13,146 nucleotides of DNA from Actinomycetota bacterium (GTDB lineage Bacteria > Actinomycetota > Actinomycetes > Actinomycetales > Angustibacteraceae). Each line of letters opens with the position of its first letter. The stretch's first letter is position 1. The notes beneath the pieces are model-generated. The model did not search any database and had not been told where the DNA came from. It was given only the letters and a program-made list of their open reading frames with translations. The stretch covers positions 1-13,146 of the forward strand of contig JACMOY010000010.1 in assembly GCA_014377795.1 (NCBI GenBank), written 5' to 3'. Below, one piece after another: positions 1,471 through 13,146 of the stretch. Made by a program: the position numbers and the translations under genes.

Positions 1471-2481
1471 TCAGCCGGCGACCGGGAGCACGTCCCCGCG
1501 CTGGGAGACGTCCACGTCGCCCGTCAGCCCGGCGCGGCGGGCCCGGAGCCCCAGCACGATGACGTAGCTGAAGAAGGCGGTCTCGGCCGCGCCCCCGATG
1601 GCGATCCTGGCCCAGGTCGGCAGTCCGGACGGGGTCACGAACGCCTCGATCACCCCGGAGAGGGCCAGCACCAGGGCCAGCCCGAGCGCGGCGCTGACCG
1701 CGGCCCGACCCCGTTCGGCGAGGGCCTGCGCGCGGCTGCGCGGCCCGGGGTCGATCAGCGTCCAGCCAAGCTGCAGACCGATGCCGCCGGCGACGAACAC
1801 CGCGGTGATCTCGAGCAGCCCGTGCGGGATGATCAGCCCGAAGAACAGGTCGGCCCGGCCGTTCGCGGCGAGCAGCCCGCCGGCGATCCCCACGTTGACG
1901 GCGTTCTGGAACAGGATCACCAGCACCGGGATCCCGAGGAGCACCCCCAGCACCAGCGTGGCTGCGGCGATGAGGGCGTTGTTGGTGAACACCTGCGCCG
2001 CGAACGAGGCGGCCGGGTTCGACGAGTAGTAGTTCTCGAAGTCGGTCTCCACCAGGGCCCGGATCTGCTCCGGAGTGGCCAGCGAGGCACGGACCGAGGG
2101 CTGGGTGGCCACCCAGGTGCCCACCGAGAGCGAGACCAGGCAGAACGCCGTCGCCACCCCGCACCACCACCGCCACGCCCCCAGCACGACGACCGGGAAC
2201 CCCGCGGTGAGGAACCGCCCGGCGTCACGCCAGGCCGGGCTCGTGGAGCCGGCGACGGCGGCCCGGGCCCGCGCGACGAGGGTGGAGAGGCGACTCACCA
2301 ACGCCGGGTCGGGGGCGCTGGACTGCACCCGGGACAGGTGGGTGGCGACCTGCTGGTAGAGCTCCACCAGCTCGTCGGCCTCCGCGCCCGACAGCGGCCG
2401 GCGGCGGTTCGACCGCGCGACGAGCTGGTCGAGCCGGGCCCACTGCGCCCGGTGCGTCACGACGAAGACGTCGAGGTCCAC
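1471..2481 (-). CDS. Stage II sporulation protein M (SpoIIM/DUF95) family integral membrane protein
   Basis: 336 residues. The GTG start at 2481 is chosen because AGGAGG (reverse complement at 2486-2491) sits 4 nt upstream and the sequence before it has no membrane-protein character. Residues 1-90 are a soluble, helical, charged N-terminal region. Membrane segments follow around 95-125, 165-205, 212-240, 262-280 and 291-312. Family hallmarks are FENYYSSNPAASFAAQVFTNNA (148-169), PHGLLEITAVF (219-229) and AFVTPSGLPTW (280-290). In Bacillus SpoIIM belongs to the DMP complex that remodels peptidoglycan during engulfment. Relatives in Actinobacteria, most of which do not form endospores, are of unknown function and sit next to RDD and DUF58 genes as here. 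It is divergent from the RDD gene, and a candidate two-gene unit with the discoidin-like gene downstream. Confidence 0.88.
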   Translation of the reverse strand: MDLDVFVVTHRAQWARLDQLVARSNRRRPLSGAEADELVELYQQVATHLSRVQSSAPDPALVSRLSTLVARARAAVAGSTSPAWRDAGRFLTAGFPVVVLGAWRWWCGVATAFCLVSLSVGTWVATQPSVRASLATPEQIRALVETDFENYYSSNPAASFAAQVFTNNALIAAATLVLGVLLGIPVLVILFQNAVNVGIAGGLLAANGRADLFFGLIIPHGLLEITAVFVAGGIGLQLGWTLIDPGPRSRAQALAERGRAAVSAALGLALVLALSGVIEAFVTPSGLPTWARIAIGGAAETAFFSYVIVLGLRARRAGLTGDVDVSQRGDVLPVAG

Positions 2482-2610
2482 CTGTCCTCCTGACGAGCAC
2501 CGCCGCGGGTGCTCCCCGCGGCGCCAGGCGCACCGACGACGCCCGTGGTCCAGACTAGGGGGGCACCCCCCCGACCGCCGGGTGCGGGGCAGGCATCGAG
2601 GGAGCAGCGT
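2482..2610. promoter_or_regulatory. Divergent intergenic region between SpoIIM-like and RDD genes
   Basis: This 129-bp gap must carry the promoters of both flanking genes. It holds the AGGAGG ribosome-binding site of the minus-strand gene (2486-2491), a G-run/C-run palindrome (GGGGGG CA CCCCCC, around 2559-2572), and GAGGGA (2598-2603) 7 nt before the plus-strand GTG. A minus-strand TAGTCT (about 2552-2557) fits a TAnnnT -10 hexamer, but I see no convincing -35. The location is secure; the exact promoter elements are not. Confidence 0.4.
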
Positions 2611-3492
2611 GTGAGCATCGTCGTCACCGGGGAAGCCGTGGCGCTGGACCTCCGTCCGGCCCAGCTCCCGACCCGGCTGCTGGCCGCTCTGATCGACGGT
2701 TCGCTCCAGGTCGCGATCCTCGTCAGCCTGCTGGTCGGGCTGAGCCAGGTGAGCCTCGACGGGGCCGCCAGTGCCGCCGCCTCGCTGGTCGCCGTGCTGC
2801 TGGCGCTGCTGGTGTACCCGGTGGCCTTCGAGACCCTGACCCGCGGACGCACGCCCGGCAAGATGGCGCTCGGCCTGCGGGTCGTGCGCGACGACGCCGG
2901 CCCGGTCGGGTTCCGCCAGGCCTTCGCCCGCGGGCTCACCGGCGCCTTCCTGGAGCGGCCCGGTCTGATGCTGCCGGGCCTGGGTCTGGGACTCTCCTTC
3001 CTGGTCCAGATCGCCCACCCGCAGGGCAAGCGCATCGGTGACGTCCTCGCCGGCACGGTGGTGCTGCGCGAGCGCTCCCCCAGGTCGGTCGGCCCGATGG
3101 CGGCGATGCCTCCCCAGCTCGCCGGCTGGGCCCGCACCCTCGACCTCTCCCGGCTGCCCGACGGGCTGGCGCTCGCGGCGCGGCAGTTCGTCTCCCGGGC
3201 TTCCGAGCTCACCCCCGGGGCGCGGGAGCAGCTGGGCAGCGAGCTCGCCGGGCAGATCGCCGCCGTGGTGAGCCCGCCACCCCCGGTCGGCACCCCCGGC
3301 GCCGCCTACCTCGCTGCGGTGCTGTCCGAGCGACGCCGACGGGCAGAGGAGAAGGTCGCCGCCGTGCCCGCGTCGTCCGCCGCACCGCTCCCGCCTGCGG
3401 ACCCCTCCGCTCCGGCGGCGTGGTCGCGTCCCTCCCCGCCGCCGGCCGACGCCCCGGTCGTGCCGCAGCAGGGCTTCGCCGTGCCCCGCTGA
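2611..3492 (+). CDS. RDD family integral membrane protein with Pro-rich C-terminal tail
   Basis: 293 residues from the GTG at 2611, preceded by GAGGGA at 2598-2603; an in-frame upstream ATG-type start would only add Pro/Gly-rich, non-family sequence. RDD hallmarks: the Arg and Asp of RLLAALID (22-29), membrane segments about 24-47 and 56-76, the conserved TRGRTPGKMALGLRVV (77-92), a third hydrophobic stretch 117-134, and GKRIGDVLAGTVVLRE (139-154). Residues 170-245 are soluble and probably cytoplasmic, and 250-293 are Pro/Ala-rich and disordered. RDD proteins are small membrane proteins of mostly unsettled function; some have been linked to ion exchange. The gene converges on the SahH-like gene with only 4 bp between the stop codons, leaving no room for a conventional terminator. 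Confidence 0.88.
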   Translation: MSIVVTGEAVALDLRPAQLPTRLLAALIDGSLQVAILVSLLVGLSQVSLDGAASAAASLVAVLLALLVYPVAFETLTRGRTPGKMALGLRVVRDDAGPVGFRQAFARGLTGAFLERPGLMLPGLGLGLSFLVQIAHPQGKRIGDVLAGTVVLRERSPRSVGPMAAMPPQLAGWARTLDLSRLPDGLALAARQFVSRASELTPGAREQLGSELAGQIAAVVSPPPPVGTPGAAYLAAVLSERRRRAEEKVAAVPASSAAPLPPADPSAPAAWSRPSPPPADAPVVPQQGFAVPR

Positions 3493-3496
3493 GGGT

Positions 3497-4807
3497 TCAC
3501 GATCCCTGCTGCCAGGACGAGAGGTACCCCCGCTGCGCCTCGCTGAGGCTGTCCACCTCGACCCCGAGGGCGGCGAGGCCGAGGGCGGCCACCCGACCGT
3601 CGAGGGTCGCGGGAACCGGGTGCACCCCGCGGGCGAGGGTCGCCGCCGCGGTCGCCAGCCAGGACAGCAGCATCGCCTGCTCGGCGAAGGCCATGTCCAT
3701 CACCGCGGGCGGATGCCCCTCCGCGACGGCGAGGTTCACCACCCGCCCGGCCGCGAGCAGCAGCACCCGGCGGCCGTCGGCGAGCACGTGCTCGTCCGCG
3801 CCCGGGCGGACCCCCAGGTGGGTCGCCACCGACGCGGCCGCCAGCGCCTTGACATCGATCTCGACGTCGAAGTGCCCCGCGTTCGCGAGCACCGCACCGT
3901 CCTTGAGCAGCTCCAGGTGCTCGCCGCGCACGACCCCGACGTTGCCGGTCGCAGTGATGACGACGTCGGCCTCGCGCAGCGCCCGGGCCATCGGCAGGAC
4001 CCGGAAGCCTCGCAGGGTCGCCTCCAACGCCCGCAGCGGGTCCACCTCGGTGACGACCACGACCGCGCCCAGCCCGGCCGCCCGCTCGGCGATCCCCCGC
4101 CCGCAGGCGCCGTAGCCGGCGACGACGACGGTGCGCCCCGCGAGGAGCAGGTGGGTCGCGCGCAGCACCGCCTCCAGGGTGCTCTGGCCGGTGCCGTGCC
4201 GCGCTTCCAGCAGCCGGGCGGTGGCACTCGAGGTGGCGGCGATCATGGGGAAGGCGAGGGTGCCGTCGCGGGCCATCTGACGCAGCCGCACGACCCCGCT
4301 GCTGGTGTCCTCCACGCCTGCCCGCACCCGGGGCAGCAGCTCCCGGCGGGTGGTGTGCAGGGTCGTGACCAGGTCGCAGCCGTCGTCGAGGACGAGCAGC
4401 GGACCGGCTGCGGCAGCGGCGTCGTCCAGGGCTGCCGACAGGTGTGCGTAGTAGGTGCGCCGGTCCGCCCCGTGCTGGGCGTGCACGGCCACCCCAACTG
4501 TGCGCAAAGCGGCCGCGACGTCGTCCTGCGCCGAGAGCGGGTTGGCGGAGGCCAGCGACACCGACGCCCCACCCGCCTGCAGCGCCTCGAGCAGGCAGGC
4601 CGTCTCCGGGGTCACGTGCAGGCACGCCGCGATGCTCAGCCCCCGCAGGGACTGCTCTGCCGCCAGCTGGGCCGCGACGATGCGCAGCACCGGCATGGCC
4701 CGGGCGGCGTAGGCGATCCGCGCACTCCCCGGGGACGCGGCGGCGGTCTCGTCGGAGGGCACCGGGAGAGCGTAGTGGCGGGCTCGGGTCGACGCTGCGC
4801 GGCTCAC
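3497..4807 (-). CDS. Adenosylhomocysteinase-like protein (short, archaeal/Thermotoga type) with altered active site
   Basis: 436 residues. The GTG start overlaps the preceding stop as GTGA, and residues 29-41 already match the family N-terminus (RIAYAARAMPVLR), so the later ATG at 4696 is less likely. Retained features: HVTPETA (H64, equivalent to human H55), NPLSAQD, LDDGCD (140-145), the NAD motif GYGACGRG (231-238), VTEVDP with E254, NAGHFDVEID (H312) and EGHPPAVM (H365). Changed: where human SahH has K186, D190 and N191 (motif KSKFDN), this protein has A197, E201 and A202, and human E156 aligns with D167. It lacks the long insertion and the HYRY-type tail of the actinobacterial enzyme. 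It is the last gene of the ABC-transporter operon. NAD binding looks likely; normal SAH hydrolysis does not. It could be a redox or elimination enzyme on another nucleoside-like substrate, or a regulatory pseudoenzyme. Confidence 0.85.
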   Translation of the reverse strand: MSRAASTRARHYALPVPSDETAAASPGSARIAYAARAMPVLRIVAAQLAAEQSLRGLSIAACLHVTPETACLLEALQAGGASVSLASANPLSAQDDVAAALRTVGVAVHAQHGADRRTYYAHLSAALDDAAAAAGPLLVLDDGCDLVTTLHTTRRELLPRVRAGVEDTSSGVVRLRQMARDGTLAFPMIAATSSATARLLEARHGTGQSTLEAVLRATHLLLAGRTVVVAGYGACGRGIAERAAGLGAVVVVTEVDPLRALEATLRGFRVLPMARALREADVVITATGNVGVVRGEHLELLKDGAVLANAGHFDVEIDVKALAAASVATHLGVRPGADEHVLADGRRVLLLAAGRVVNLAVAEGHPPAVMDMAFAEQAMLLSWLATAAATLARGVHPVPATLDGRVAALGLAALGVEVDSLSEAQRGYLSSWQQGS

Positions 4808-5724
4808 CCCGCCCCTACGGCCGCCAGCGTTGCCACCTCGGCGCCGATGGCCGCCGCCCCGCTGGGCCCGTACCCGACCGAGTAGTGGTTGGTGCCCTCG
4901 ACGGTGCGCACCCGCAGCCCGGGCAGCTCGGCAGCGAACTCTGCGCAGGCGGCCTCGGGCATCATCGGGGCCATCGTCTCCGGCGAGACGCAGAACCCTG
5001 CGGTGGCCCGCACCAGCGTCACCGGGCAGCGCACCAGGTCCAGGTCCTCGCGCAGGGTCGGGCGCTGCCCGACCGGGTCCCAGTAGCTGACGGCGTCGGC
5101 GGTGGCGGCCAGCACCGTGCAGCGGGCCGTCGCCGTGCCGTCTGCAGCGATGTCGAGGCCCTCGAGCAGGTGCTCGGCGAGGGCGTCGGACCAGATGCCG
5201 ACGAACGCCGGGTGGGCCTGGAAGGCGTCGAGGAGCACCTGCGCCGAGGGCAGGGTGGCGCCGAGGCGGACGTCCCAACCGGCCCCCATCACGGCATCGA
5301 CCGCCGCACGCGGGGTGACCCCGGCGGGCAGGTCGGCGAACCAGCCGCCGTCGACGGCGACGACGCCGCGCACCAGGTCGCCGTGGTGGGCCGCGAGCTG
5401 AAGACCGACCCACGCCCCCATCGAGTGCCCCACCACCACGACCTCGGCGAGGCCCAGGTGCCGCAGCACCGCAGCCGCGTCGTCGGCGTGACGCCGCATG
5501 CCGTAGCGGGACGGGTCCGCGGGCGAGTCCGAGAGCCCCCGCCCGCGGGCGTCGAGGCTCACCAGCGTCGCGCCGGCAGGCAGGTACGGGCGCAGCGGGC
5601 CGAAGCCCAGCCGGTTCGCCGAGAGCCCGTGCAGGCCGAGCACCACCGGTCCGCCGGGTTCACCGGGCCAGACCTGTGCCTGCAGCACGACCCCGTCGTC
5701 GGCGGTGACCCGCAGCATCGTCAT
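4804..5724 (-). CDS. Alpha/beta hydrolase
   Basis: 306 residues, a full-length single-domain alpha/beta hydrolase fold protein with no signal peptide (cytoplasmic). Visible motifs: oxyanion-hole LHG (31-33), LDARGRGLSD (58-66), nucleophile elbow GHSMG (99-103, Ser101), and a C-terminal NHYSV whose His280 is the likely catalytic base. The usual acid after strand 7 is not evident (VRATAGFCVSPE, 238-249); D125 after strand 6 (VAVDGG) is a candidate instead. The likely reaction is hydrolysis of an ester, amide or similar bond in a small molecule; the substrate cannot be read from sequence. The ATG overlaps the stop of the 54-residue gene as ATGA, and its stop overlaps the SahH-like start as GTGA, so all three should be made together. 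An ATG two codons later (5718) is an equally possible start. Confidence 0.85.
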   Translation of the reverse strand: MTMLRVTADDGVVLQAQVWPGEPGGPVVLGLHGLSANRLGFGPLRPYLPAGATLVSLDARGRGLSDSPADPSRYGMRRHADDAAAVLRHLGLAEVVVVGHSMGAWVGLQLAAHHGDLVRGVVAVDGGWFADLPAGVTPRAAVDAVMGAGWDVRLGATLPSAQVLLDAFQAHPAFVGIWSDALAEHLLEGLDIAADGTATARCTVLAATADAVSYWDPVGQRPTLREDLDLVRCPVTLVRATAGFCVSPETMAPMMPEAACAEFAAELPGLRVRTVEGTNHYSVGYGPSGAAAIGAEVATLAAVGAG

Positions 5725-5885
5725 GGCCGCACCCGTCCACCGAGCATCGCGCGCATCTCCTTCGTGTCGAGCATCCCCACACCCGTGCGTGGGAGGTCGT
5801 CGAGCAACGCCCGATCCTCGGGCAGCCACCAGGGTGGCACCTGATCCTCGAGGAAGTCGCCCAGCCGGGTCGTGGCGGCGTTCAC
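5721..5885 (-). CDS. Small conserved-looking protein of 54 residues, function unknown
   Basis: A short frame, GTG at 5885 to TGA at 5721, fills the only gap in the operon exactly. Its GTG overlaps the PucR stop (GTGA) and its TGA overlaps the hydrolase ATG (ATGA), the junction style used throughout the operon. The product starts VNAATTRLGDFLEDQVPPWW, continues LPEDRALLDDLPRTG and ends with the basic stretch MRAMLGGRVRP. It is acidic in the first half and basic at the end, with a Pro-Pro-Trp-Trp motif (17-20). There is no membrane segment, signal or cysteine. I do not recognise the family. Its size and position between regulator and hydrolase suggest a small accessory subunit or partner of the downstream enzymes. 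The coupled overlaps at both ends are the main evidence that it is real. Confidence 0.7.
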   Translation of the reverse strand: MNAATTRLGDFLEDQVPPWWLPEDRALLDDLPRTGVGMLDTKEMRAMLGGRVRP

Positions 5886-7042
5886 CGCAGGTCCTGGTCG
5901 TCGGTGGGGAGGCCGAGGCCGAGCACCAGCACGGCCGCGTCGGAGGGGATCCGGGGGTCCAGCCCGGTGAGCTCACGGACCCGGGTGAGCCGGTAGCCCA
6001 CCGTGTTGGCGTGCACGAGCTCATGACGGGCCGTCTGCGGGACCGAGCCGGTGTCGAGATAGCAGCGCAGGGTGGCGGTGATGACGCCGGCGGAGTCTGC
6101 GCGGGTGAGCACGTCGAGCACCCGCCGCCGCAGCCCGGCGGCGACCCGGTCGTTGCCGAGCAGCAGCTGCTCCACCAGCAGGTCGTCGGGGCCGAAGCTG
6201 CCGCTGGTGCGGCCCTGCGCCAGCGCGGTGAGCAGCAACGCCTCGACCTGGTGCACCTCCGCCAGCAGCGCACGCCCACAGGGCGCGGCCAGGCCGGTGC
6301 AGGTGAGGTCGTCGCCCCGGGCCCGCCACGGCGCTGCCCGGTGGGGCACCAGCAGCAGCACACGGGCGACGCGGTGCCCTGCGAGGGTCCCGTCCGGCGC
6401 ATCCCGCAGCAGCGCGTCCACCCCGGCCGCCGCTGCGGTGCCCCCGACGAGCACCGGCACGTACGCCGCCGCCAGCACGGTGGAGAACCGCAGCGACACC
6501 GCCGCCACCTCGGACGGATCGGTCGCGGTGAGCAGCGCCTCGACGAGCTCGCGGCGACGGGCGTCGACGTGCCGCAGCCGTTCGTGCGAGGCCGCGACGT
6601 AGGCCTGGGTCAGCGCCGAGCAGGTGCGGTCGACGACGTCCATCCACCGCGTCCCCAGGTCGGCGAGGAGCCGGGTCTCCCCCGGCCTGACGGCGGCGCA
6701 CATCGCCGACCAGGCCTCCCGGCCGGCGATCCGGTAGGCGTGCAGCACCGACTCCAGCGGCATGCCCATCGCCAGCCGCATCCGGCCGGAGTCCTCGAAC
6801 GTCTGCAGCTCACGGCGGTTCAGCGGACGCTGCTCCACCACGCAGGACAGGAACGTGGTGACCAGCCGGCGTGACACCGGCAGCACCTCGAGCTCGAGCT
6901 GTCCCGGGGCGAGCGCGGCGTACTCCGGGATCTCCTCGCGGTAGGCCTGCCCCATCCGCACGACCACGGAGTCGAGGTCGGCCATCAGCCGCTCGGCGAG
7001 CGCCCCGGCCCCGTCGTCGCGGACCGCCCGCAGCGTCGTCAC
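5882..7042 (-). CDS. PucR family transcriptional regulator
   Basis: 386 residues from a GTG that overlaps the livF stop as GTGA. The C-terminal 60 residues carry the PucR helix-turn-helix signature: TLRCYLDTGSVPQTA (324-338), HANTVGYRLTRVRELTG (344-360) and a hydrophobic end (370-378). Residues 1-160 are helical and resemble the N-terminal sensing region found before PucR domains in Actinobacteria; the middle (165-275) is a GGDEF-like/CdaR-type linker region. PucR activators typically respond to a metabolite; the founding member controls purine catabolism in Bacillus subtilis. Being inside the operon it probably governs, it is a candidate autoregulator responding to the imported solute or a product. 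A likely target is the inverted repeat at 12271-12307. There is no clear ribosome-binding site of its own, so translation probably depends on coupling to livF. Confidence 0.85.
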   Translation of the reverse strand: MTTLRAVRDDGAGALAERLMADLDSVVVRMGQAYREEIPEYAALAPGQLELEVLPVSRRLVTTFLSCVVEQRPLNRRELQTFEDSGRMRLAMGMPLESVLHAYRIAGREAWSAMCAAVRPGETRLLADLGTRWMDVVDRTCSALTQAYVAASHERLRHVDARRRELVEALLTATDPSEVAAVSLRFSTVLAAAYVPVLVGGTAAAAGVDALLRDAPDGTLAGHRVARVLLLVPHRAAPWRARGDDLTCTGLAAPCGRALLAEVHQVEALLLTALAQGRTSGSFGPDDLLVEQLLLGNDRVAAGLRRRVLDVLTRADSAGVITATLRCYLDTGSVPQTARHELVHANTVGYRLTRVRELTGLDPRIPSDAAVLVLGLGLPTDDQDLR

Positions 7043-7818
7043 GACGTGCCGCGCTTGCGGGCGAGCAGGGCGGATCCGGTGGCGCCGGCCAGCACCCGGC
7101 CGATGCCCAGGTGGGTGGCGAGGGTGTCGTTGTCGAGGCTGGCCACCGGCGCGGAGTGCACGACCCGGCCGGTCTGCAGCAGGTGCGCGGTGTCGACCAG
7201 CGACAGCCCGAACGCGACGTTCTGCTCGACGAGCACCATCGTCACCCCGGTCTGCCGGACCACCTCGAGCACCGCCCGCAGCTCGAGCTGGGCGACCGGG
7301 GAGAGCCCGGCGCTGGGCTCGTCGACGAGGATCAGCCGCGGCTCGTTGATCAGTGCCCGGGCGACCGAGAGCGACGCCTGCTGCCCACCGGACATCGTCC
7401 CGGCGAGCTGGTGGCGACGTTCGCGCAGCACCGGGAACTGGGAGTACGTCCGCTCCAGGCTCGCGGCATAGCGGGCCCGCCGACGCCGCCGCAGGGTGTA
7501 CGCGCCGAGGCGAAGGTTGTCCTCGACCGAGAGACCGGGGAACACCTGGCGACCCTGCGGCACGTGCCCCATCCCGCGCGCCACCCGCTGCTCGGGGCTG
7601 AGCGTCGTCACGTCCTCGCCGTCGAGGAGCACCCGACCGCTGCGGACCGGGACGACTCCGCCGATGGTCTTCATCGTCACCGACTTGCCGGCACCGTTGA
7701 GGCCGAAGACGCCGGCGATGGAGCCCGCCGGGACCACCATCGAGACGCCGTGCAGCACGGTGACGGCGCCGAACCCGGCGGTGACGTCGATGATCTCCAG
7801 CATCGGGGCGGCACTCAT
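7039..7818 (-). CDS. livF: ABC transporter ATP-binding protein, LivF type
   Basis: 259 residues. The ATG at 7818 is preceded by AGGAGGTG (reverse complement 7824-7831), the strongest ribosome-binding site in the operon, and overlaps the LivM-LivG stop as ATGA. Walker A GLNGAGKS (39-46), Q-loop VPQGR (87-91), signature MSGGQQ (142-147), Walker B LILVDEP (162-168), D-loop SAGLS. The position after Walker B reads LVEQN (196-200), as is usual in LivF, with Gln in place of the switch His of LivG. This is the second ATPase of a high-affinity branched-chain amino acid/amide/urea-type importer and would pair with the LivG domain of the upstream fusion at the cytoplasmic face of the membrane. The 25-residue tail after the ATPase core is basic. 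The symbol reflects family membership, not proven leucine transport. Confidence 0.9.
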   Translation of the reverse strand: MSAAPMLEIIDVTAGFGAVTVLHGVSMVVPAGSIAGVFGLNGAGKSVTMKTIGGVVPVRSGRVLLDGEDVTTLSPEQRVARGMGHVPQGRQVFPGLSVEDNLRLGAYTLRRRRRARYAASLERTYSQFPVLRERRHQLAGTMSGGQQASLSVARALINEPRLILVDEPSAGLSPVAQLELRAVLEVVRQTGVTMVLVEQNVAFGLSLVDTAHLLQTGRVVHSAPVASLDNDTLATHLGIGRVLAGATGSALLARKRGTS

Positions 7819-9680
7819 GCCGACACCTCCTGACCGAGGTAGGCGCGGACGACCTCGGGACGGCCGACGACCTCGAGCGGCTCGCCGTCGGCGATCACCC
7901 GGCCGGCGTCCATCACGTAGAGCTCGTCGGCGGTGGCGAGGACCAGCGGGATGTTGTGCTCGATCAGCAGGATCGTGCGCCCGAGGGTGTCGCGGATGTC
8001 GATCAGCGTCGAGGCCAGGTCCTCCGCCGCCGCCGGGCTCATGCCGGCGCTCGGCTCGTCGAGCATGAGCAGCTCGGGGCTGGTGACCAGCGCGCACCCG
8101 ATCTCCACGATCCGCTGCTGACCGTGGCTGAGCCGCCCCACCGGGGTGTCGCGGTACCGCCCGAACCCGAGGCCGTCCATCGTGGCGTCGGCGCGGTCGC
8201 GGAGGTCGCGCTCCCACGCCCGGCTGCCCAGCGTCGTCAGGGCCGCGGCCACCCCGTAGGGGGCTGCGAGGTGCTGGGCGATGAGCAGGTTCTCGTAGAC
8301 CGTCTCCGCCTTCGCGAGCCCGATCAGCTGGAAGGTGCGCCCCATCCCGCGGGCCGCCCGGCGGTGCGCGGCGAGGGAGGACACGTCCTCGCCGAGGAAG
8401 TGCACGGTGCCGGCGTCGGGGGTCAGCGCCCCGGTGAGGGCGTTGAACAAGGTCGTCTTGCCGGCGCCGTTGGGGCCCATCAGGGCAGCGATGGTGCCCC
8501 GGTCGACGCGCAACCCAGCACCATCGACGGCCTGCAGCCCACCGAAGGCGACGCTGATGCCGCTGCCGTGCAGCACCGGCTCGCCGCGGTGGATCCGCCG
8601 TGGCGTCGGCATCCCGGACGGCCGGCCCAGGTCGGGCAGCGACGGCCTGGTCGGCGGCAGCGGTGGCTCGCCGCCCTGGCGGGCCCGGCGACGCTCACGG
8701 GCATCGGCCATCGCCCCGGCGTAGCCGCGCGGCTGGAAGGCGACGACGGCCATCAGCACGACCCCGTTGATGACGAGGTCGACCCCGCGGATGCCGTCAC
8801 CGACGATGCTGAGCAGCACCTCCGGGTAGAGGGTGACCACGAACGCGGCGGCGACCACCCCACCGCGGCTGCCGAGGCCCCCGACGACCACGACCACCAG
8901 CAGGGCCAACGACTGCGCGTAGCCGTAACCGGCTCCGGTCACCGTGCCGTACGCGGTGCCGTTGAGGCAGCCGGCGATCCCGGCGATCGCCCCCGACAGG
9001 CTGAACGCGAGCAGCTTGTAGCGGGCGACGTCCACCCCGAAGGAGGCAGCGACGCTCTCGTCGGCCTTGATGACGCGCAAGGCCCGGCCGAGGCGGGACC
9101 GGGTGAGGTTCACGTCGGCGCGCCAGAGCAGCACCAGCAGCACCAGCCCGATCGCGAGGATCGAGGCGTTGCTGGCCAGCGCGGTGTCCCCCACGTAGGG
9201 CCGCGGGACGACCTTGCCGGCCGACCCGCCACCGATCGCGTCGATGCGGAACAGCGACTCGCTGGCGGCGTAGGCGACCGCGATGGTGACGACCGCGAGG
9301 TAGAGCCCGCGCAGGCGCAGTGCCGGCAGCCCGACGAGGAACGCCAGCCCCGCCCCGACGACAGCGCTGGCGAGGAGTCCGAGCAGCCACGGCAGCCGCA
9401 GGTCCGCCACCCCGGTGACGATGCCGGTGGTGAACGCACCGACCCCGACGAACGCGTACTGGCCCAGCGACACCTGCCCGGCGTAGCCGAGCAGCAGGTT
9501 CAGCGACAGCGCTGCCATCGCGGTGACGCAGGCCCCGGTGAGCAGCAGGGCGTGCGGCTCGCTGAGCAGCGGGGTGGCACCGGCGAGCGGGGGCAGCACC
9601 GCGGCCAGCAGCAGCGCGACGACGACCCTGGGGACTCCGGGCCGGCCGGCCAGGACGGCGGGCAGGGACACCGCGGTCAT
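7815..9680 (-). CDS. Fused LivM-LivG: ABC permease plus ATP-binding protein
   Basis: 621 residues joining two subunits that are separate in E. coli. Residues 1-320 are the LivM-type permease, with about eight to ten hydrophobic helices and the family motifs NLLLGYAGQVSLGQYAFVGVGA (61-82), GLYLAVVTIAVAY (125-137) and GVDVARYKLLAFSLSGAIAGIAG (215-237). A charged, Pro-rich linker spans about 322-368 (RERRRARQGGEPPLPPTRPS). Residues 369-621 are the LivG-type ATPase: Walker A GPNGAGKTT (402-410), signature LSHGQQ (517-522), Walker B LLMLDEP (537-543) and switch His in EHN (574-576). The frame is continuous with no stop, and GAGGAG precedes the ATG by about 8 nt. Its ATG overlaps the livH stop (ATGA). 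The fusion should lock permease and ATPase in 1:1 ratio. Such fusions occur in Actinobacteria; the domain calls are firm, the substrate unknown. Confidence 0.92.
   Translation of the reverse strand: MTAVSLPAVLAGRPGVPRVVVALLLAAVLPPLAGATPLLSEPHALLLTGACVTAMAALSLNLLLGYAGQVSLGQYAFVGVGAFTTGIVTGVADLRLPWLLGLLASAVVGAGLAFLVGLPALRLRGLYLAVVTIAVAYAASESLFRIDAIGGGSAGKVVPRPYVGDTALASNASILAIGLVLLVLLWRADVNLTRSRLGRALRVIKADESVAASFGVDVARYKLLAFSLSGAIAGIAGCLNGTAYGTVTGAGYGYAQSLALLVVVVVGGLGSRGGVVAAAFVVTLYPEVLLSIVGDGIRGVDLVINGVVLMAVVAFQPRGYAGAMADARERRRARQGGEPPLPPTRPSLPDLGRPSGMPTPRRIHRGEPVLHGSGISVAFGGLQAVDGAGLRVDRGTIAALMGPNGAGKTTLFNALTGALTPDAGTVHFLGEDVSSLAAHRRAARGMGRTFQLIGLAKAETVYENLLIAQHLAAPYGVAAALTTLGSRAWERDLRDRADATMDGLGFGRYRDTPVGRLSHGQQRIVEIGCALVTSPELLMLDEPSAGMSPAAAEDLASTLIDIRDTLGRTILLIEHNIPLVLATADELYVMDAGRVIADGEPLEVVGRPEVVRAYLGQEVSA
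7824..7831 (-). promoter_or_regulatory. Strong ribosome-binding site of livF
   Basis: AGGAGGTG on the minus strand lies a few bases before the livF ATG and within the end of the upstream coding region. It matches the 16S anti-Shine-Dalgarno over eight bases and settles the ATG at 7818 as the start. The other coupled junctions of this operon have weaker sites, so LivF may also be initiated independently. Confidence 0.75.
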
Positions 9681-10603
9681 GCGGGGATCTCCTCAGCGAC
9701 GGGGGTGCTCGTGGGTGCGGCGGGGGGCGGGGGGTAGATCCACGCGACCAGGCCGGGCAGCGCGTTCCGCCCGACCAGGGCCAGCAGCAGCAGCATCAGG
9801 TCGACGACGTAGTTGAGGTTGGGGATGCCGGCGTCGCCGAACAGGCGCTGGGCGACGGACTCGGTGAGCCCGAGCACCACGGCGCCGATGACCGCGCCCG
9901 ACAGCGAGGTCAGCCCGCCGAGCACCGCGGCGACGAGCCCGCCGAGGTAGAGCGTGCTGGCGTAGCCGGGGGTGACGAATCCGACGGTCGGCTCGACCAG
10001 CAGCGCCGCGACCGCGGCGGGCCCTGCCGACGCGCTCCACACGACCAGCCGGATGCGGGCCAACGGCACCCCGACCAGGCGGACGGCAGCCGGGTCCTCG
10101 GCAGCGGCGAGGATGCCCAGGCCGAAGTCGGTGCGGCGCAGGGCCGACTGCAGGCCCAGGCCGAGCGCGGCGGCGACCACCAGCGAGGCGATCATCGTCG
10201 GCGACAGCACGATCCCGGCGAGCTCGACTCCCCCGCGGAACGGCGGCGCCAGCCCCTGCGGGCTGCTGCCGAAGGCGAGGGTCTCCACCGACAGCAGCGT
10301 CAGCGCCAGGCCCACGGTGAGGATGGAGAGCACCACCGGGTCGGCGTCGACCGCCCGCCGGACCAGCAGGAACTCGAACGCCGCCCCCAGCAGCACGGCC
10401 GAGGTCACGGCGGCCAGCGCTCCCACCCCCCACGGCAGTCCGGCGCGGGTGCTCACCAGGGCGGCGACGTACAGCGAGGCGGTGCCGATCTCCCCGCCGG
10501 CGAAGGTCAGCACCCGGGTGGCCCGGTAGACGAACACGATGCCCACCGCGAACAGGGCGTAGATGCCGGCCTGGATGAGGCCGAGCAGCAGCACCTGGCC
10601 CAT
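9677..10603 (-). CDS. livH: ABC transporter permease, LivH type
   Basis: 308 residues from the ATG at 10603, which shares one base with the stop of the binding-protein gene (TGATG). The protein is strongly hydrophobic with about eight membrane segments. LivH motifs: GLIQAGIYALFAVGIVFVYR (8-27) and LTFAGGEIGTASLYVAA (32-48, the usual N-F-A-x-G-E pattern with T for N), a cytoplasmic loop SALRRTDFGLGILAAAEDPAAVRLVGVP (153-180) that contacts the ATPase, and GGLTSLSGAVIGAVVLGLTE (229-248). The C-terminal 18 residues are Pro/Thr-rich. With the LivM domain it would form the transmembrane channel of the importer. No good ribosome-binding site precedes the ATG, so translation probably follows from termination of the upstream gene. 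A longer open frame extends upstream to 11704 but has no permease features. Confidence 0.88.
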   Translation of the reverse strand: MGQVLLLGLIQAGIYALFAVGIVFVYRATRVLTFAGGEIGTASLYVAALVSTRAGLPWGVGALAAVTSAVLLGAAFEFLLVRRAVDADPVVLSILTVGLALTLLSVETLAFGSSPQGLAPPFRGGVELAGIVLSPTMIASLVVAAALGLGLQSALRRTDFGLGILAAAEDPAAVRLVGVPLARIRLVVWSASAGPAAVAALLVEPTVGFVTPGYASTLYLGGLVAAVLGGLTSLSGAVIGAVVLGLTESVAQRLFGDAGIPNLNYVVDLMLLLLALVGRNALPGLVAWIYPPPPAAPTSTPVAEEIPA

Positions 10604-12177
10604 CAGGGGGCCACGCACTTGCGGGTCTCGCGCCAGTTCACGGCGCCGCCGGGCGCGCGGTAGGACGACATGAACGTCACCTGGTTCGCGCCGCGGTAGC
10701 CGTCGGAGCCAGGGAAGTCGATCGGGCAGGCGCTCGACGTCGGCGTCCCGCGGTAGCCGGTGAGGACATCGACGAAGCGGTTGCGGGTGCAGTCCTTCCC
10801 GCACAGCGCGAGCTGCACCGCGAGCGCCTTCTGGGCGGTCCAGTTGAGGAAGAGCAGGTCCCCGCCGGCCCCGGAGAGGTCGGCGTTGGGCCGGTACCTC
10901 GCGTACTGGCCCTCGAACTGCTTCATGTCGTCGGCGTAGGAGGCGAACGTGCCGCTGTAGTCGCCCCTGCTGTACGCGGGGTACATCGCCACCCCGTCCA
11001 GCGGCGGGCCCAGCGCGTCGTCGCCGAGCGTCTGGGTGGTGAGGTTGAACGGGAACGCCATGATGTTCGGGCTGTAGAGCTGGGCCTTCATCTGCTTGAT
11101 GACCTGGGTGGACTCCAGCGCGTTCAACCAGATCCAGACGACGTCGACGTTGGCGTTCTTCATCGTCGTGATGGGGCCGGTGTAGTTCCCGGCGCTGGCC
11201 GGCACCGCGACGTCGGCGACCACGGTGAGCCCGTACCTCGCCGCCGCGGCCTTGAACGCGGTGACCCCCGGTTTCCAGTTGGCGCTGTCGCGCTCGATGA
11301 TGCCGATCCGCTTGCCGCGGAACTTGCTGGCGGCCAGCTGCGCGAAGCCCTCGCCCAGACGCTCCACGGTGGGCAGCTCGGAGAAGGAGTACCGCTGCCC
11401 GGCCGAGCCCTCGACGGTGGCCGAGTGGTGCAGGTAGAGGGTGTGGGAGCGCTCCACGTAGTTGCGCACCGCCGGGATCTGGTCGAAGCCGATCCCACCG
11501 AGCAGCATGAAGATCTTCTTGCTGACGCAGGTGGTGGCCGCCTGCACGGCGGTGTCCGGGGAGTAGTTGTCGTTCTCGTAGGTGACCTCGACCTTGCGGC
11601 CGTTGATGCCGTTGCTCTCCGCGTTGAGGGCGGTCCAGAACACGTTGAGGTCGTCGGTGTCGGTGTTGAAGGCCTTGCCGTAGGTCAGCGCGGCGTGCGC
11701 GCACATCCGCAGCGACGTCGGCGTGATGCCGATCGAGTCCTCCCCGGCGGTGAACAGGGTGCTGCGCGCAGGGGCGGGGCCGGCCGCAGCCGCCGCAGTC
11801 CCTCCCCCCGAGGCAGGGGTCGTGCCGCCGCCCGCCACCGTCGCCGCCGGGGCCCGGGTGCCGGCACCGGCCTGCACCGCCGCAGACGCGCTCGGGCGCC
11901 CGGTCGGGCCGACGCTACTGGTGGCCGCCCCGGTGGGGACACCGGGGCCCGTCGCGGGGCCCGTCGGGGCGGCGCTGCCGGCGGGGGCGGTCGCGTCGAG
12001 GACCGGCTGGCCCTGGGCACCGACCACCGCCGTGCCCAGCGGCGTCGACCTCGGGGCACTGAGCACGTCAGGGGCCGGGGCGCTGGAGCAGGCCGCGACG
12101 ACGGAGAGGGCGGCGAGGCCCAGCAGGGCGGCGGCGCGCCGGTGCCGTTGGGCAGGTCGGCGGGGGCGGTGCGGCAT
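10603..12177 (-). CDS. ABC transporter substrate-binding lipoprotein (type 1 periplasmic-binding fold, LivJ/K-like)
   Basis: 524 residues; ATG at 12177 with GGAG 5 nt upstream. Residues 1-15 are basic, 16-29 hydrophobic, and LSVVAAC ends in Cys30: a lipobox, so the mature protein is lipid-anchored on the outer face of the membrane. Residues 31-142 are an unusually long Ala/Pro/Gly/Thr linker. The binding domain starts near 146 (DSIGITPTSLRM) and shows the family layout: AFNTDTDDLNVFWTALNAESNGINGRKVEV (169-198), GGIGFDQIPAVRNYV, then RGKRIGIIERDSANWKPGVTAF (287-308) at the start of the second lobe. The last 70 residues hold four Cys (459, 463, 484, 521) that could form disulfides. It is longer than typical LivJ (about 370 residues), mainly through the linker and C-terminal region. 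It captures the solute for the importer encoded downstream; the identity of the solute is not readable. Confidence 0.88.
   Translation of the reverse strand: MPHRPRRPAQRHRRAAALLGLAALSVVAACSSAPAPDVLSAPRSTPLGTAVVGAQGQPVLDATAPAGSAAPTGPATGPGVPTGAATSSVGPTGRPSASAAVQAGAGTRAPAATVAGGGTTPASGGGTAAAAAGPAPARSTLFTAGEDSIGITPTSLRMCAHAALTYGKAFNTDTDDLNVFWTALNAESNGINGRKVEVTYENDNYSPDTAVQAATTCVSKKIFMLLGGIGFDQIPAVRNYVERSHTLYLHHSATVEGSAGQRYSFSELPTVERLGEGFAQLAASKFRGKRIGIIERDSANWKPGVTAFKAAAARYGLTVVADVAVPASAGNYTGPITTMKNANVDVVWIWLNALESTQVIKQMKAQLYSPNIMAFPFNLTTQTLGDDALGPPLDGVAMYPAYSRGDYSGTFASYADDMKQFEGQYARYRPNADLSGAGGDLLFLNWTAQKALAVQLALCGKDCTRNRFVDVLTGYRGTPTSSACPIDFPGSDGYRGANQVTFMSSYRAPGGAVNWRETRKCVAP

Positions 12178-12382: not shown

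Positions 12383-13146
<764 letters not shown>

Follow-up and report, generated by a model that had tools for sequence, protein, structure and literature searches.

The window, that is, the whole stretch of 13,146 nucleotides of actinobacterial DNA that was analysed, carries two genes of the S-adenosylhomocysteine hydrolase (SAH hydrolase, SahH) family, a truncated sahH1 and a complete sahH2, together with the following features.

1471–2484, minus strand: SpoIIM-family protein, the next shared neighbour after the RDD gene
2509–3492, plus strand: RDD-family protein, found downstream of the sahH1–sahH2 pair in 11 of 17 examined loci with the pair
3497–4807, minus strand: sahH2, short-type SahH paralogue, with D167, A197, E201 and A202 replacing E156, K186, D190 and N191 (human numbering); start codon unsure
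4202–4219, minus strand: codons 197–202, A-R-L-L-E-A, at the K-x-x-x-D-N place (translation and alignment, counted from the GTG at 4807)
4307–4309, minus strand: codon 167, Asp replacing E156 (translation and alignment, counted from the same GTG)
4804–5691, minus strand: α/β hydrolase of uncertain start, whose end shares 4 bases (GTGA, containing its TGA) with the GTG of sahH2
5882–7042, minus strand: PucR-type regulator with a C-terminal HTH_30 (domain match)
7039–7833, minus strand: LivF/UrtE-like ABC ATPase (profile matches)
7815–9680, minus strand: fused LivM–LivG-like permease/ATPase (profile matches)
9677–10549, minus strand: LivH/UrtB-like permease (profile matches)
10603–12177, minus strand: LivK-like substrate-binding protein (profile matches)
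12383–13144, minus strand: sahH1, C-terminal part of a canonical long SahH, truncated by the contig end

The gene order was thus sahH1, cassette, sahH2, RDD and SpoIIM, the two sahH genes being co-oriented and sahH2 the downstream one. The cassette separating the two sahH genes (4804–12177) consisted of LivK-H-MG-F, PucR and the α/β hydrolase, and its LivM and LivG parts were fused in a single frame. No RNA families or tRNA were found in the window. The repeats detected were weak matches where the sequence is rich in G+C, and sahH2 and sahH1 had one 30-base match in common (93 %). No agm-type genes were recognized among the 10 window proteins scanned. Among the matches listed, the best homologue of the window hydrolase was P0243 (75 % identical). 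P0243 and P0003, the closest listed relative of the window SahH2, come from contigs of equal length (616,967 bases), from which it is inferred that they share one contig. No PucR homologue on a 616,967-base contig was present among the 120 best matches listed; a PucR homologue (P0174) and a hydrolase homologue (P0247) have in common a longest contig of 59,997 bases.

The sahH2 frame opened with GTG, closed with a terminal stop, contained no internal stop and encoded 436 aa; its start is unsure because the database record of the protein (P0002, 421 aa) begins later. The best PDB match, obtained with phmmer, was the SahH of Synechocystis (7o5l, residues 22–435 of the window protein, 394.5 bits). 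There were 58 distinct PDB sequence matches with E up to 0.001, nine of which were other dehydrogenases or reductoisomerases and the remainder SahH or SahH-like. In the 7o5l alignment the chain reads TKHFYDNRYGTGQST opposite TARLLEARHGTGQST in the window protein, and EETTTG lies opposite the EDTSSG of the window's VEDTSSG. This pairing equates A197 with K186, E201 with D190, A202 with N191 and D167 with E156 (human/mouse numbering). The spacings between residues 131, 156, 186, 190 and 301 of the mammalian enzyme, as named in PMC4647836 (25, 30, 4 and 111), matched those between positions 142, 167, 197, 201 and 312 of the window protein exactly. The replacement of SahH residues put forward in an earlier, sequence-only reading of this DNA was therefore correct: E156, K186, D190 and N191 are absent from the window SahH2, which has D, A, E and A instead. 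The same reading had stated that the NAD motif, E254, H64, H312 and H365 were kept, and this was borne out in the aligned rows, in which H64, H312 and H365 occupy the places of H55, H301 and H353. Also retained were D142 (D131), T66 (T57), E68 (E59), T168 (T157), F313 (F302) and N358 (N346). The KSKFDN that it had attributed to the canonical gene was found in the sahH1 fragment.

Membership of the family was evident from Pfam, with 144.6 bits for the AdoHcyase domain (cut-off 25) and 160.2 bits for AdoHcyase_NAD (cut-off 27). Of the curated equivalog models, NF004005 (NCBIfam adenosylhomocysteinase) scored 495.4 bits (cut-off 275) and TIGR00936 scored 477.3 (cut-off 497.6). The AF2 model of the window SahH2, built from an alignment of 55 sequences, had a mean pLDDT of 90.4, and the top Foldseek match of this model was the SAHH of P. 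furiosus (TM 0.89/0.92, 415 columns). The query-normalized TM of the predicted model was 0.84–0.89 for 48 of the 50 chains listed, in keeping with the SAHH fold; two chains of the inactive form of T. maritima SahH gave a TM of 0.70. The fold is thus predicted to be intact. With the short-type enzymes of Synechocystis (7o5l), P. furiosus (7r37) and T. maritima (3x2e/3x2f) the window protein shares its length class, the NAD motif and the gate His-Phe, as well as the modelled fold (TM 0.86–0.89), and its adenine motif, HxTxE, is that of bacterial and crenarchaeal enzymes. It differs from them in the replacement of E156, K186, D190 and N191 and in the presence of a second SahH at its locus. The structure of rat SahH K185N (1xwf), which lacks the same Lys, also resembles the window model (TM 0.88), although that protein is a laboratory single mutant whereas the window protein shows a natural fourfold loss.

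Among the matches listed, the closest protein to the window SahH2 was P0003, from another assembly, which was 77–78 % identical and reads D/A/E/G at the four positions. As P0003 carries nearly the same set, the substitutions are neither a one-off nor an assembly error. A frame error in sahH2 was likewise rejected, since D/A/E is repeated in this second assembly. An alignment of 121 rows was made from the window protein and the best 120 of its 7,912 matches (its own record in the database plus 119 homologues), and the combination of A197 and E201 occurred in three of them, namely the window, its record and P0003; no wider D-A-E clade was found among these best matches. In the other 118 rows, which were up to 63 % identical, position 201 was Asp in 118, position 197 was Lys in 102 and Arg in 14, and position 202 was Asn in 112. 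Across 221 other aligned short SahH, comprising pooled loci and database proteins of which some may count twice, D201 was Asp in all 221 and N202 was Asn in 211. These 221 sequences had 160 positions with at least 95 % conservation, of which 14 were altered in both the window protein and P0003, seven more in the window alone and three in P0003 alone. The changes common to both included N192 and D193 (just ahead of the motif), D201, N202, T170 and N219, and their being shared marks them as an inherited feature of a clade with two known members.

Searches of further genomes added no member. The A1 search of 396 genomes of the window's nominal order (1e-90) returned the window as the sole match, and a search with P0003 of 394 genomes of the class returned the window at 78 % and otherwise nothing above 66 % identity. 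P0003 had no match in eight genomes of the order of f27, the nearest family by sahH1 (1e-90), and a set of 393 genomes from the class, centred anew on G460, gave no further match (1e-153). The genome and DNA of P0003 were not among the sets searched. The sequence-only reading had made its case for a changed function depend on close orthologues. The closest of those listed, P0003, has the altered set, in line with that reading, but the 118 other rows mostly have Lys or Arg, Asp and Asn. Of the A/E/A triplet whose conservation in a clade it had suggested testing, the first two residues are common to the window and P0003, and the third is Gly in P0003.

The window sahH2 occupies the second place in a tandem, found in Actinobacteria, of a long sahH1 and a short sahH2. 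The order sahH1–sahH2–RDD–SpoIIM, without the cassette of the window, was found in 11 of the 17 examined relatives having both genes (L036, L039, L041, L050, L058, L089, L092, L094, L113, L156 and L162), with the RDD gene up to some 8 kb from the pair. No match to RDD or SpoIIM was found in the flanking sequence of the other six (L091, L098, L102, L155, L160 and L161). In all but one of the 96 tandem rows the sahH1 and sahH2 matches lay −34 to 414 bases apart; the exception, L190, had a gap of 1362 bases. Horizontal gain of sahH2 was not favoured, as the gene order with RDD–SpoIIM is that of the relatives. Four loci of f27 (L151–L154) had no sahH2 between sahH1 and RDD. Two unusual sequences were also seen. 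In L163 (G400), about 20 bases separate a sahH1 from a short SahH that has Met at K186. This short copy forms a long branch apart from the other tandem rows, which may reflect a second emergence of the tandem or an error in placing the branch. P0004 (549 aa, on a contig of 2652 bases) is a SahH in which a portion of the NAD-domain and C-terminal sequence recurs internally, possibly as an artefact of assembly.

Thirteen active-site positions were compared in 146 rows, and noncanonical residues were present in 47 of 96 tandem rows versus none of 43 non-tandem rows. Removal of one fragment (L201), 11 identical duplicates, P0003 (context unknown) and four contig-edge rows (L057, altered; L105, L106 and L107, unaltered) left 129 distinct rows. 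In these, at least one active-site residue was altered in 45 of 89 tandem copies, the remaining 44 being unaltered, compared with 0 of 40 non-tandem copies (Fisher p 7e-10, ignoring relatedness). The tandem class includes the window, with its cassette between the genes, and L190, with its gap of 1362 bases. ‘Non-tandem’ denotes the lack of sahH1 in the available stretch, at least 1.2 kb upstream, and such a genome may still have a sahH1; the flanks of L133–L136 extended to only about 1.5 kb, and sahH1 was far off for L133, L134 and L136.

A phylogenetic tree of 134 rows was reconstructed by a ‘quick’ method with the 13 active-site columns excluded and long branches flagged. On this tree the altered state changed at least six times, four of which were forced by well-supported branches. 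The tandem trait itself changed twice, so that the independent-pairs test, with one informative pair, cannot reach significance. The window and P0003 formed a clade with support of 100, which adjoined f47 with weaker support (92). The tandem relatives (L036–L114 and L155–L202) showed repeated changes at E156, K186, N191, H55 and H353. The minimum number of changes was nine at E156, seven at K186, five at N191, three each at H55 and H353 and one each at D190 and N346, and there were none at D131, T57, E59, T157, H301 and F302 across the 134 rows. Of the 128 sites that were invariant in the 40 non-tandem rows, three (E156 included) changed as often in tandem rows as E156, and only six as often as K186; H55, H353 and N191 ranked lower and D190 was ordinary.

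The residues altered varied between groups. E156Q alone accounted for the majority of altered tandem rows, was present in 16 of 18 Actinomadura loci and also in Allonocardiopsis and Actinorugispora, and may be mild in its effect. Three f31 genomes, including G406, combined E156G with K186R, and the f47 loci (L155, L160, L162 and L176) carried H55P, N346G and H353S, largely different from the changes of the window. As the clades lose different residues, a single common new role is not implied. In G431, G490, G500 and G519 sahH1 is distant and the short copy is unaltered, and therefore redundancy alone does not predict the change. On these alignments, the window case belongs to a pattern that recurs among tandem sahH2 genes and that the sequence-only reading had not noted.

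Nei–Gojobori dN/dS values were 0.039–0.249 in 10 of 11 pairs of altered copies, the exception being L162/L176 (0.44), and 0.009–0.168 in five pairs of unaltered copies. The pairs were hand-picked, shared rows (L036 and L166 twice each) and came from clades other than that of the window. The low values, among them 0.062 for the L155/L160 pair with H55P, N346G and H353S, indicate that selection can keep copies with broken canonical sites. Between the window and the P0003/P0243 contig, SahH2 was 77–78 % and the neighbouring hydrolase 75 % identical, apparently in a comparison of the same two contigs. The G+C content of sahH2 by codon position (0.80/0.54/0.94) resembled the values for the hydrolase and PucR genes.

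The bin containing the window is, by its own figures, 73 % complete and 2.4 % contaminated, and three distinct long sahH genes were present in it (on C124, C361 and the window's C380). Over a shared 102 aa, the C380 copy had 73 and 78 % identity with the other copies, compared with 91 % between C124 and C361. The C124 copy was 90 % identical to that of a genome of the same family (L017), and the best matches of the C380 copy among those compared were at 86 % (f27) and 85 % (f47). Named PucR homologues among the matches listed belonged to bacteria of the Frankiales, Frankiaceae or Mycobacteriales. It is probable that the window contig was placed in the wrong bin and derives from another genome; the sahH2 finding is independent of this.

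In mouse SAHH the 2′-OH of the ribose is held by E156 and D190 and the 3′-OH by T157 and K186, and K186 is the proposed acid that returns a proton to the 3′-keto group (PMC4647836). AgmF, an NAD-dependent dehydratase of angustmycin A biosynthesis in Streptomyces, is described as a re-purposed SahH homologue whose activity is abolished by K184A and by D188A (PMC8599513). Given these residue roles and mutants, the window SahH2 is not expected to perform the initial redox step of the usual mechanism: in the absence of Lys186 the 3′-OH proton would be neither taken nor returned, and ribose oxidation, and hence SAH hydrolysis, would be lost or very slow. Judged by its residues, SAH hydrolysis by the window protein is unlikely. 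The kept adenine side, D131, gate and NAD motif fit a protein that binds NAD and an adenine nucleoside, and the window SahH2 probably binds NAD and adenine. The sequence-only reading had proposed NAD(H) binding together with either a different nucleoside-like substrate or a sensor or partner role; it is supported in part, by the replaced residues, their recurrence in P0003, the conserved fold and NAD motif, and the signs against simple decay.

The reading preferred here, with a probability of about 0.5, is that SahH2 is a retained SahH paralogue that would hold NAD and serve as an adenosine/SAH-binding partner or sensor without hydrolysing SAH. The loss of the Lys, the varied pocket alterations and the tie to sahH1 fit a partner or sensor, and such a role is preferred to activity on a new nucleoside. 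The gene would have been inherited as the short-type partner of the tandem pair. Once the pair had formed, sahH1 presumably covered SAH hydrolysis, and constraint on the sugar-oxidizing residues of sahH2 may have been relaxed several times, leading in the window lineage to the replacement of all four named ribose-side residues. SahH2 could possibly act in mixed oligomers with SahH1.

Comparable departures are known in other SahH relatives. AHCYL1 and AHCYL2 of animals (IRBIT and long-IRBIT) have substitutions of critical catalytic residues and, according to PMC12955632, cannot catalyse the SAH reaction. The likeness of the window SahH2 to these paralogues as described there lies in catalytic-residue substitutions; unlike them, it is bacterial and without the N-terminal IRBIT extension, about 21 residues preceding the SahH match. 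Short SahH of Euryarchaeota that prefer S-inosylhomocysteine provide a case of altered specificity (PMC10978960), but as described there these enzymes differ on the base side (HxExK), whereas the window protein has HxTxE intact and its differences lie at the ribose.

It is possible, if doubtful, that SahH2 is instead an enzyme of changed substrate, in which the remodelled ribose side takes another nucleoside or nucleoside-like compound in elimination/addition chemistry like that of AgmF. AgmF offers a precedent, being annotated as an SAH hydrolase and reported to reject SAH and dehydrate angustmycin C (PMC8599513). D131, H301, F302 and the adenine-side T57 and E59 were retained in 134 of 134 rows, and E156D with D190E resembles a length swap of two carboxylates, which, with K-to-A and N-to-A, would leave room for a differently substituted nucleoside ligand. 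The overlapping hydrolase gene would also suit such an enzyme, as would the same-strand genes farther upstream for the PucR regulator and ABC importer; the carboxylate swap, the kept D131 and H301 and this cassette together fit a new substrate. However, AgmF as described keeps and needs the Lys and Asp that are replaced by A197 and E201 at the K-x-x-x-D places of the window protein, the scan of the window proteins recognized no agm-type genes, and different parts of the pocket are lost in different altered clades. The Asp156 of AgmF was considered as the residue of the E156 column and rejected by spacing (K184 minus 30 being 154).

It is improbable that SahH2 still hydrolyses SAH in the ordinary way, perhaps more slowly, with different groups taking over from the missing residues. 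Its NF004005 score lies above the cut-off, and the predicted fold and the NAD motif are intact, but its TIGR00936 score falls under the cut-off, no new Lys or Arg common to the window and P0003 was seen in the replaced loop (alignment, by eye), and the missing residues are among those stated to be crucial in the rat enzyme (PMC7203018). A decaying gene on its way to loss is very improbable, and the sequence-only reading had likewise argued against simple decay. Four f27 loci do have sahH1–RDD–SpoIIM without sahH2 between, and P0001 matched six of eight f27 genomes as long SahH alone (38–39 % identity; no match at 1e-30 in two), but the frame is open with the G+C pattern of its neighbours, its identity to P0003 is comparable to that of the neighbouring hydrolases, the conserved-site changes are mostly common to P0003 (14 in both, 10 in just one, of 160) and other altered clades have low dN/dS.

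Non-hydrolytic SahH paralogues in animals (PMC12955632) and a re-purposed SahH in Streptomyces (PMC8599513) are already described. Among the matches listed in the open-licence literature, no paper was recognized on tandem sahH in Actinobacteria or on a natural K186-less bacterial SahH. Related strains offer both unaltered and altered tandem copies, so that a SahH fold without the first redox step is directly testable. The more general idea, that Actinobacteria have a two-part SahH system in which sahH2 repeatedly became a non-hydrolytic subunit or sensor, is put forward tentatively from the comparison of sequences. If true, sahH2 would keep the NAD/adenine site and the gate while dropping the ribose-oxidizing residues, and the pair would be an independently arisen bacterial equivalent of AHCY/AHCYL in animals. 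The tandem pair bears on whether a paralogue regulates methyl-cycle flux in bacteria, and it calls for caution in actinobacterial models, as not every sahH2 may encode an SAH hydrolase.
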